A stretch of 64,000 bases of DNA from assembly GCA_021463845.1 (NCBI GenBank), contig JAJTXV010000001.1:186001-250000 (forward strand), written 5' to 3'. Both the position numbers and the translations under genes were made by a program. Each line of letters opens with the position of its first letter. Within the stretch, counting starts at the first letter, position 1. Shown here in pieces: positions 7,519 through 11,229 of the stretch. Below the pieces are notes generated by a model. It ran no database searches and was not told the DNA's origin. It saw nothing but the letters and a program-made list of their open reading frames with translations. The DNA comes from Anaerolineales bacterium (lineage in GTDB: Bacteria; Chloroflexota; Anaerolineae; Anaerolineales; UBA11579).

Positions 7519-9018
7519 CTACGCCTCTCGCGGGATCTCGCAACACAGCACCAACTGCCGCGCCGCCTTGACCTCATCCATGCGGCCGTACTTGGTGGTG
7601 TGCGGCGCCTGCTGCAGTAGCTCAGGCGTGGTGTGAGCTTCCTCGGCGATCTTGAGCATGGCGTCCACAAAGGCGTCTAGCACTTCCTTGCTCTCGGTTT
7701 CGGTTGGCTCGATCATCAACGCTTCACGCACGATCAGCGGGAAGTAGTTGGTGGGCGGGTGGAAGCCAAAGTCCATCAAACGCTTGGCAATGTCCAGCGC
7801 GTGCACATCGGGCGCGTCGGCCCAGCGGCCTTCCAGCACCACTTCGTGCATGCACACCCGGTCGTAGGGCACCTTGTATGCGCCTTGCAGCTTGACGCGC
7901 AGGTAGTTGCCGTTCAGCACGGCGTGCTCGGCCACCGAACGCAGACCCTCGGCGCCCTGCATCAGGATGTAGGTGAAGGCGCGCACGTGCATACCGAACT
8001 GGCCGTGGAACGCCTTCAGGCGCCCGATGCTCTTGGGCGGCTGGTGCCAGCCGTACACCGGCCCCATCTCTTCGCTGCCTTCCTCCTCGATGCCTACGAT
8101 GGGGCCAGGCAGGAAGTCGGCCAGGTGGGCGGCCACGCCCACAGGGCCGGAGCCCGGGCCGCCGCCGCCGTGCGGCGTGGTGAAGGTCTTGTGCAGGTTG
8201 TAGTGCAGCACATCCACGCCCAGGTCACCCGGGCGGGCAATGCCCAGGAGGGCGTTCATGTTGGCGCCGTCGCCATACACCAGGCCGCCGGCGGCATGCA
8301 CCGCTTCGATGGCCTCCTGTACCTGTTCTTCGAACAGGCCCAGGGTGTTGGGATTGGTCAGCATCAGCGCCGCCAGGGTCTCGTCACATTCGGCTTTGAG
8401 CGCTTCGAGGTCCAGGTTGCCGCGTGCATCCGAAGGGATCTCGACCACGCGGTAGCCGGACATGGCGCTGGTGGCCGGGTTGGTGCCGTGAGCCGAGTCA
8501 GGGATCAATACTTTGTTGCGCTTGCTGTCGCCGCGGCTGGCGTGGTAGGCCTTGATCATCAGCACGCCGGCCAGTTCGCCGTGGGCGCCGGCGGCGGGCT
8601 GCAGCGAGACGGCCGCAAAGCCGCCGATCTCCTTGAGCCATTCCTGCAGGTGATACATCACCGCCAGGCTGCCCTGCATCATCTCGGCGGGCTGCAAGGG
8701 GTGGGCGTGCGCAAAGCCGCCCAGGCGCGCGGTTTCCTCGTTGATGATCGGGTTGTACTTCATGGTGCACGAGCCCAGCGGGTAGAAGCCGGTCAGGATG
8801 CTGTGGTTGAGTTGCGATAGGCGCGTCAGGTGGCGCAGCGCTTCCAGTTCGCCTAGCTCCGGCAGCGGCAGGTTGTCGCGCACCAAGCCCTTAGGCAACT
8901 CGGCCAGCGGTACATCCGGAACAGGCATCTGCACGCCGGTGCGGCCAGGTGCGCCCAGGTCGTAGATCAGTGGCTCAGGCATGCGCCACCTCCGCCAGGG
9001 TCTCAACAAGGTAGTCAA
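7519..9018 (-). CDS. gcvPB: Glycine dehydrogenase (decarboxylating) subunit 2
   Basis: NLHKTFTTPHGGGGPGSGPVGV PLP-lysine region; GSCTMKYNP; adjacent gcvPA. Confidence 0.95.
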   Translation of the reverse strand: MTTLLRPWRRWRMPEPLIYDLGAPGRTGVQMPVPDVPLAELPKGLVRDNLPLPELGELEALRHLTRLSQLNHSILTGFYPLGSCTMKYNPIINEETARLGGFAHAHPLQPAEMMQGSLAVMYHLQEWLKEIGGFAAVSLQPAAGAHGELAGVLMIKAYHASRGDSKRNKVLIPDSAHGTNPATSAMSGYRVVEIPSDARGNLDLEALKAECDETLAALMLTNPNTLGLFEEQVQEAIEAVHAAGGLVYGDGANMNALLGIARPGDLGVDVLHYNLHKTFTTPHGGGGPGSGPVGVAAHLADFLPGPIVGIEEEGSEEMGPVYGWHQPPKSIGRLKAFHGQFGMHVRAFTYILMQGAEGLRSVAEHAVLNGNYLRVKLQGAYKVPYDRVCMHEVVLEGRWADAPDVHALDIAKRLMDFGFHPPTNYFPLIVREALMIEPTETESKEVLDAFVDAMLKIAEEAHTTPELLQQAPHTTKYGRMDEVKAARQLVLCCEIPREA

Positions 9019-10321
9019 TTTCTTCCTTGCTGTTCAACTCGGTCACGGCCAGCAGGCTGCAGTTCGCCAGGGTGGGGTAGTCACCGCCTAGGTCGTAGCC
9101 GCCGATGATGCCGCGCCCCAGCAGGCGCAGGTTCAGCTCCGCCGCCGGGATGGGGCTTTCCATCACAAACTCATGGAAGAAAGCATCCTTGAACTTGAGG
9201 CCAAAGCCCTTGAGCTTGCTGATCTCGGCCGCGGCGTAGTGCGCCTTGTGATAGCAGCTCTCGGCCACCTGGCGCAGGCCGCTCTTGCCCAGCAGGCTCA
9301 TGTACGTCGTGGCGGCCAGCATCATCAAGCCTTGATTCGTGCAGATGTTGGAGCTGGCCTTCTCGCGCTTGATGTGCTGCTCACGCGTGCTCAGCGTCAG
9401 CACAAAGCCGCGCTGGCCGCGGTTGTCCACCGTTTCGCCCACCAGGCGGCCGGCGATCTGGCGCACGTACTGGTTGCGCGTAGTCAGGATGCCGAGGTAT
9501 GGCCCGCCGAACGAGAGCGGGATGCCCAGCGGCTGGCCTTCGCCGGTGACGATGTCGGCGCCCATCTCACCGGGCGGCTTGAGCAGCCCGAGCGCGGTGG
9601 GGTTCACCGACACCGCCAGCAGGGCGCCCTTGGCGTGGGCGGCTTCGGCCAGCTTGGTGTAGTCATACACCCGGCCGAAGAAATCCGGATAGGCCACGCA
9701 CACCAGCCCGGTCTGCTCGTCGATCATGTCGATCAGCGCGTCTGGCCCGGCGCTCAGGTCGAAGTCTTCGCCGACGAACTGCAGGTCGCCGCCGTCTTCA
9801 TAAGTGTGTACCACGGCGCGGTACTGCGGGTGGATGCCGGGCGACATAATGATCTTGTTGCGCGCCCCGCGGTGGATGCCGCGGCTCATATTGACCGCTT
9901 CGGCCAGCGCCGTGGCGCCGTCATAGTGTGAAGCGTTGCTGACTTCCATGCCGGTCAGCGCCACGATCAGGCTCTGGTATTCGAAGATGGCCTGCAGCGT
10001 GCCCTGCGAGATCTCCGGCTGGTAGGGCGTGTAGGCGGTGTAGTACTCGCCGCGGCGCAGAATGCTGTCGACTCCGGCAGGGATGTAATGGTGATAGGCT
10101 CCCGCGCCGAGGAAGCTGACCAGATCGTCAGCGCTTTCGTTGGCCTCGGCGATGCCTTTGAGCTCGCCCAGCGCTTCCATCTCGGTGAGCGGGGCGGGCA
10201 GGTTAAGTTTGGGGAAACGGAACTTTTGCGGCACCGCGCTGAACAGATCGGCAATGGTCTTGACGCCGATCGCCTCCAGCATCTGCTGGCGGTCGCGCTC
10301 CGTATGCGGAACGAAGGTCAC
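8975..10321 (-). CDS. gcvPA: Glycine dehydrogenase (decarboxylating) subunit 1
   Basis: MTFVPHTERDRQQMLEAIGV...FLGAGAYHHYIPAGVDSILRRGEYYTAYTPYQPEISQGTLQ. Confidence 0.95.
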   Translation of the reverse strand: MTFVPHTERDRQQMLEAIGVKTIADLFSAVPQKFRFPKLNLPAPLTEMEALGELKGIAEANESADDLVSFLGAGAYHHYIPAGVDSILRRGEYYTAYTPYQPEISQGTLQAIFEYQSLIVALTGMEVSNASHYDGATALAEAVNMSRGIHRGARNKIIMSPGIHPQYRAVVHTYEDGGDLQFVGEDFDLSAGPDALIDMIDEQTGLVCVAYPDFFGRVYDYTKLAEAAHAKGALLAVSVNPTALGLLKPPGEMGADIVTGEGQPLGIPLSFGGPYLGILTTRNQYVRQIAGRLVGETVDNRGQRGFVLTLSTREQHIKREKASSNICTNQGLMMLAATTYMSLLGKSGLRQVAESCYHKAHYAAAEISKLKGFGLKFKDAFFHEFVMESPIPAAELNLRLLGRGIIGGYDLGGDYPTLANCSLLAVTELNSKEEIDYLVETLAEVAHA

Positions 10322-10710
10322 GCCGAACGCTCCTTGCAGTAGGCCTCATAGGCCGCCGCATCCAGCAGTGCATCCAGCTGGGCCGGGTTGGTCAGCTTGA
10401 CCTTGGCCAGCCAGGCTTCGCCGAACGGATCGCTGTTGATCGCTTCCGGCTTCTGCGCCAGAGCGCTGTTGACCTCGACCACTTCGCCGTCCACCGGCAT
10501 GTAGATGTCGGCGGCCGCCTTGACCGACTCGACGCTGGCAAACGTAGCGCCCTGCGCTACGTTTGCGCCGGGTGCCGCGCTGAAATCGACATATACGATG
10601 TCAGACAGCTGATCCTGGGCGTAGTCGCTGATGCCAACCGTGGCGCTGTCGCCTTCCACGCGGACCCATTCGTCGTTCTTGGTGTACTTCACATCGCTGG
10701 GATATTTCAT
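10318..10710 (-). CDS. gcvH: Glycine cleavage system H protein
   Basis: YTKNDEWVRVEGDSATVGISDYAQDQLSDIVYVD...ASVESVKAAADIYMPVDGEVVEVN (lipoyl-lysine motif ESVKA). Confidence 0.96.
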   Translation of the reverse strand: MKYPSDVKYTKNDEWVRVEGDSATVGISDYAQDQLSDIVYVDFSAAPGANVAQGATFASVESVKAAADIYMPVDGEVVEVNSALAQKPEAINSDPFGEAWLAKVKLTNPAQLDALLDAAAYEAYCKERSA

Positions 10711-10773: not shown

Positions 10774-10805
10774 AAAAAAGCGCACACGAAATAGACGTGT
10801 GCGCC
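10774..10805 (-). terminator. Rho-independent terminator / expression platform of the glycine riboswitch
   Basis: Minus strand GCGCACACG-TCTATTT-CGTGTGCGC followed by TTTTTT, directly downstream of aptamer II. Confidence 0.85.
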
Positions 10806-11010
10806 TCTGTTTTGGACCTGAGAGTTTGATCGCGGCACGCCTTTCGCCGCAACTTGCCCCGTCGGTTGAGACTGTAGCGGCGGCGTCAGCCGATGCGTCA
10901 CAGTCTACATTTCCAGAGGAGTATGGCGAACGCGGGTCCTTTGTACCTGAGAGTTTCGCGCGCAGTGGTGTGCCGCGCACTTGCCCCTTCGGTGGCGCCA
11001 GATGCAGCGC

Positions 11011-11035
11011 GGAGAAACCTGGTGTTGGTTTCTCC
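11011..11035. repeat. Hairpin repeat ggagaaacc-tggtgtt-ggtttctcc, copy 1
   Basis: 9-bp perfect stem, 7-nt loop. Confidence 0.85.
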
Positions 11036-11060
11036 GCCGCACAGTAGGTACTGCGCACAC

Positions 11061-11085
11061 GGAGAAACCTGGGTTTGGTTTCTCC
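11061..11085. repeat. Hairpin repeat ggagaaacc-tgggttt-ggtttctcc, copy 2
   Basis: 9-bp perfect stem, 7-nt loop, 50 bp from copy 1. Confidence 0.85.
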
Positions 11086-11229
11086 CGCGGCGCAGTGGGT
11101 TTCTGCGCCGCAACTCTCCCCTACGTTCGTTCTTAATTTTGGCGATTCTAAAAGAGGCGGGGGGGAAAGTCAAGCAGGGAAGGAAGCGGCCAGCCTTGCT
11201 TGGATCCCTAATCTCCACTCACCAGTGCT

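Follow-up and report, generated by a model that had tools for sequence, protein, structure and literature searches.

The tandem glycine riboswitch (Rfam RF00504), as known from the Bacillus subtilis gcvT leader, comprises two aptamers with conserved cores and P1 and P3 helices, a terminator after aptamer II and a gcv operon downstream. The B. subtilis gcvT riboswitch is an ON switch that works through its terminator (PMC5666159). Riboswitches are described as carrying variable stem-loop insertions that leave the core intact, and those collected by Barrick and Breaker (2007) are long, nonconserved, self-folding peripheral stem-loops (PMC2258182). The P2 helix of aptamer I was poorly resolved by cryo-EM of a tandem glycine riboswitch (PMC12060979). 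A report on the Neisseria gonorrhoeae gcvT riboswitch names the helices P1, P2 and P3, with P3a inside P3, and describes a 73-nt Y-shaped P3 loop in aptamer 2; there, too, a tandem glycine riboswitch has one of its peripheral stems enlarged to two stem-loops (PMC13104608).

A locus of this kind is located in the window, the whole 64,000-nt stretch of Anaerolineales DNA analysed here, where a promoter, aptamer I, aptamer II and a terminator follow one another on the minus strand directly upstream of the glycine metabolism genes gcvH-gcvPA-gcvPB (Table 1). The locus has all the elements of the B. subtilis type leader and differs from it in the P2 arm of aptamer I, which is 121 nt long and contains a tandem-duplicated two-hairpin unit. 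It resembles the insertions of Barrick and Breaker, but in this case a relative with a single unit reveals the origin by tandem duplication. The N. gonorrhoeae stem belongs to the other aptamer and to P3 rather than P2, and the passage on it reports no duplication. The finding is an unusually long, historically readable variant of a variable riboswitch insertion and not a new mechanism.

Table 1. Features of the glycine riboswitch locus in the window
Feature	Position	Strand	Basis or remark
Sigma-70-like promoter, TTGACT-17-TAGAAT	11145..11173	-	similar hexamers at equivalent place in most relatives
Aptamer I P1 5' strand, CGAACG..GGG	11119..11129	-	pairs with 10936-10927, pair probabilities 0.91-1.0
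Aptamer I 5' core GGAGAG (true core)	11114..11119	-	sequence; conserved among relatives
Aptamer I P2 arm, expanded, 121 nt	10993..11113	-	folding and comparison with relatives
Hairpin A1, GCGGCGCAG-AAACCCA-CTGCGCCGC	11087..11111	-	sequence; comparison with G002
Hairpin B1, GGAGAAACC-AAACCCA-GGTTTCTCC	11061..11085	-	pattern search
Hairpin A2, diverged A1 copy, GCGCAGT-ACCT-ACTGTGC	11039..11056	-	unit alignment
Hairpin B2, GGAGAAACC-AACACCA-GGTTTCTCC; 5' strand is decoy core for Rfam model	11011..11035	-	pattern search, Rfam
Short hairpin GCGCT-GCATCT-GGCGC, arm 3' end; identical in G002	10995..11010	-	
Aptamer I P3, CCGAAGGGGCAA ... CTCTCAGG	10946..10992	-	Rfam, folding; 46/47 identical to G002
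Aptamer I P1 3' strand	10927..10936	-	folding
Glycine aptamer II, P2 arm ~44 nt	10797..10926	-	RF00504 match over these positions, 32.8 bits
Intrinsic terminator	10776..10808	-	5' side overlaps CAGAGG (10809-10804)
gcvH	10318..10710	-	
gcvPA, after gcvH	8975..10321	-	sequence reading
gcvPB, after gcvPA	7519..9018	-	sequence reading

The Rfam glycine family is called for both aptamers at 32.8 bits each against a gathering cut-off of 32, while every non-Glycine Rfam match in the region lies far below cut-off, and the conserved cores GGAGAG, CCGAAGGNGCAA, CTCTCAGG and GGAC are all found in the right order. The aptamer I match spans 11047-10925 and starts wrongly at the second GGAGAA, in hairpin B2, so that its alignment uses a decoy core as a consequence of the insertion. 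As this match barely passes the cut-off, longer arms could escape annotation; such an arm can mislead a standard covariance model, and similar cases could stay hidden. The upstream GGAGAG is the true core because P1 (CGAACG..GGG with CCC..CGTTCG) forms there and because the core of a congener, G002, occupies the corresponding place. In the unconstrained minimum free energy fold of the whole leader (RNAfold) aptamer I adopts its canonical P1 and P3 while the arm pairs within itself, and whole-leader pair probabilities give none of the GGAGAG bases a best partner in the arm. The proposed competition of GGAGAAACC with GGAGAG is therefore not apparent at equilibrium, where P1 pairs with probabilities of 0.91-1.0. 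Upon deletion of the arms, the aptamers of the window and 20 relatives (21/21) refold to a common P1-P3 core, and the P1 sequence varies among them while the pairing is kept, as judged from predicted folds, per-position counts without bulges being uninformative for some species. Family scan, leader fold and refolding together bear out the original prediction of a glycine aptamer I that has kept its core through an expansion of about 100 nt, and judged by its sequence the locus is a tandem glycine riboswitch of ordinary type, with glycine binding and switching predicted.

CAGAGG (10809-10804) is complementary to CCTCTG (10919-10914), a sequence at the 5' side of aptamer II, and is likely to be the 3' strand of the aptamer II P1. 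Since the 5' side of the terminator contains this probable strand, P1 and terminator would be mutually exclusive. The riboswitch most likely acts as an ON switch, by transcription antitermination on gcvH-gcvPA-gcvPB, which would be in line with B. subtilis (PMC5666159). The stretch from terminator to gcvH measures 64 nt in the window versus 21-31 nt in congeners, and contains at 10761-10742 a palindrome, GGGCGCAGCATGCTGCGCCC / GTAGGGGCGCAGCATGCTGCGCCC, that is dispersed in the same genome (18 sites with at most two mismatches, 10 of them exact).

Aptamer I GGAGAG is separated from CCGAAGG (10992-10986) by 121 nt of hairpins, compared with about 19-34 nt in family relatives outside the genus. 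The arm had been assigned to P3a, but it is P2, because the Rfam structure line places this hairpin after P1 and before P3, in agreement with the naming in the literature. All the hairpins originally listed are present where they were described, yet they are not independent insertions: Tandem Repeats Finder (TRF) resolves the array into 1.9 copies of a 50-bp unit with 83% matches, read as A1-B1-A2-B2. Hairpins A1 and B1 have identical AAACCCA loops, and GGAGAAACC-N-GGTTTCTCC matches twice in the window versus never in 100 shuffles. The side arm is unusually long because the two-hairpin unit was duplicated in place, and this local tandem duplication explains the repeats.

The folding energy of the arm is -70.9 kcal/mol compared to -40.2 +/- 4.1 for dinucleotide shuffles (z about -7.5). 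Its lowest-energy fold is not the row of four hairpins, which at best reaches -66.3 kcal/mol and is thus 4.6 kcal/mol weaker, but hairpin A1 followed by a long rod in which the B strands of unit 1 and unit 2 pair together, the outer ones with each other and the inner ones around A2. In G002 a closing P2 stem, GATGCAG/CTGCATC, was considered and rejected, since the hairpin fold is favoured over it by about 10 kcal/mol.

The length of aptamer I P2 varies widely within the genus, from 19 nt (G005) through 34-35 (G009, G007, G008), 40 (G001), 46 (G006), 65 (G002) and 80-82 (G003, G010) to 121 nt in the window, which marks the arm as fast-evolving and peripheral; in the order-level loci that were read P2 is short, as in other genera of the family. 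Among the genus genomes compared, only the window's species and G002 carry the A-B arm; the hairpin pattern occurs once in G002, in the same riboswitch, and is absent from nine other congeners. G002 has the A-B unit once, as GCGATGCAG-AAACCCA-CTGCGTCGC followed by GGAGAAACCAGGTTTCTCC, and lacks six of the seven B-loop bases. The 3' flank of the arm is identical between the two across 39 nt, and stem A differs by one compensatory change (G-C to A-U) and one C-G to U-G change with pairing kept; on account of the compensatory change, selection may be acting on the pairing of stem A. Aligned positions between about 11030 and 10980 show 98-100% identity of the window to G002, whereas in the flanking stretches the identity is about 53-85% and the window is mostly closer to G007. 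In the gcvP DNA tree G002 groups with G001 (100/100), apart from the window, and by fmt and gcvP identities the window is nearest to G005, G007 and G008. This discordance suggests local recombination over a short tract as the simplest reading, although the unusually high conservation of arm and P3 between window and G002 could instead reflect constraint or selection. In G001 an inverted repeat, AGTAGTAGGGAGGGTC-TAA-GACCCTCCCTACTACT, lies upstream of the riboswitch promoter (L033).

The explanation in which we place considerable confidence is that of a tandem glycine riboswitch whose P2 was lengthened by the 50-bp duplication into a variable insertion that the structure tolerates and that is close to neutral. 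The arm is regarded as tolerated because it folds on itself without disturbing P1, the junction or P3; by prediction and comparison it is self-folding, nonconserved and core-sparing. Aptamer I P2 would then be a peripheral stem that tolerates insertions, the single-unit form seen in G002 was probably exchanged between lineages by local recombination, and its duplication probably followed in the window's species, so that G002 with one unit and the window with two would provide a before-and-after example of a riboswitch side arm that grows around an intact sensor core. It is quite unlikely, by comparison, that selection maintains the arm as a regulatory or tertiary-contact module whose competing folds or 7-nt loops adjust co-transcriptional folding or the dimerisation of the aptamers. 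The near-equivalence of the four-hairpin and rod folds (within about 4.6 kcal/mol), the shared A1 and B1 loop, the compensatory change in stem A and the separate long architecture common to G003 and G010 (80-82 nt) speak for such a role, but the core is retained in G005, G007, G008 and G001, whose arms measure 19-40 nt, no congener arm except that of G002 has the loop motif, and G002 itself lacks most of the B loop. The new regulatory module that had been envisaged thus finds no support: the core persists in congeners whose arms span 19-82 nt and are unrelated in sequence, and the spread from 19 to 121 nt within one genus does not indicate a module.

The original prediction also held that a dispersed hairpin repeat had colonised the arm. 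The genome-wide search proposed alongside it located GGAGAAACC-N-GGTTTCTCC solely at the riboswitch in the 2.33 Mb genome, not in the many copies of a dispersed family, and elsewhere in that genome the array has only 14-24 nt matches with E values of 0.7 or above. Confinement to one locus means that the hairpin is not a dispersed repeat of the window's genome, and insertion of a dispersed palindrome of that genome into the arm is very unlikely, even though GGGCGCAGCATGCTGCGCCC is dispersed there with one of its sites in the riboswitch leader and a 7-bp dispersed repeat forms the P2 arm in three other genomes (G309, G416 and G291, see below), given that GGGCGCAGCATGCTGCGCCC differs in sequence and lies past the terminator. 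That the repeat is an assembly or sequencing artefact, as a tandem repeat in a single assembly might be, is hardly credible: the two units have diverged from each other at several positions, the array sits in a contig of 792 kb, and the unit is present independently at the equivalent place in G002.

Long P2 arms are found elsewhere in the bacterial class. A survey of 397 genomes yielded exact-core matches with 12-42 nt arms in at least 78, these counts being lower bounds because the patterns demand exact cores and skip some lengths. Long-arm matches were accepted where CTCTCAGG followed and no inner core was present, which gave arms of 50 nt (G125), 59 nt (G446), 63 nt (G291 and G416), 73 nt (G107), 77 nt (G309) and 100 nt (G399 and G238). 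In G187 (L218) a GGGAAGAG core lies further upstream and aptamer I P2 is about 130 nt long with a 37-bp x 2.0 tandem repeat. The long arms of G399, G238, G309, G416, G291 and G187 (63 to about 130 nt) are comparable to that of the window in position and length, and the arm of G187 in its tandem repeat too, but their sequences are unrelated. In one distant genus (G309, G416 and G291; L207, L206 and L205) P2 is built of 7-bp repeats of the CGGTAAT type, trimers of which have about 100-200 matches per strand genome-wide in these genomes and none in a reversed control or in the window's genome. These counts make the genus a genuine example of a dispersed repeat occupying a riboswitch arm, so that the idea of colonisation holds for the distant genus and fails for the window. 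A class-wide generalisation, in which sequence repeatedly lands and expands in P2, independently in each case, through tandem duplications (window, G187) or dispersed 7-bp repeats (G309, G416, G291), and is exchanged between species by short recombination, with alternative folds tuning the switch, is unlikely.

A separate scan for gaps of 95-125 nt yielded candidates that were rejected: among the matches listed, 114 of 120 ran from aptamer I GGAGAG to aptamer II CCGAAGG and 5 of 120 had a nearer core, while the remaining one (L118), in which a CCCCTGGC..GCCAGGGG-type hairpin immediately precedes CCGAAGG, seems to owe its upstream GGAGAG to chance. Repeats also occur in aptamer II of two of the surveyed loci, where P3 of L218 (G187) carries 8-bp TAGTC-type repeats and P2 of L208 (G446) is enlarged by 16-bp (2 x 8) repeats of the TAGTCGTTTAGTCAGG type.
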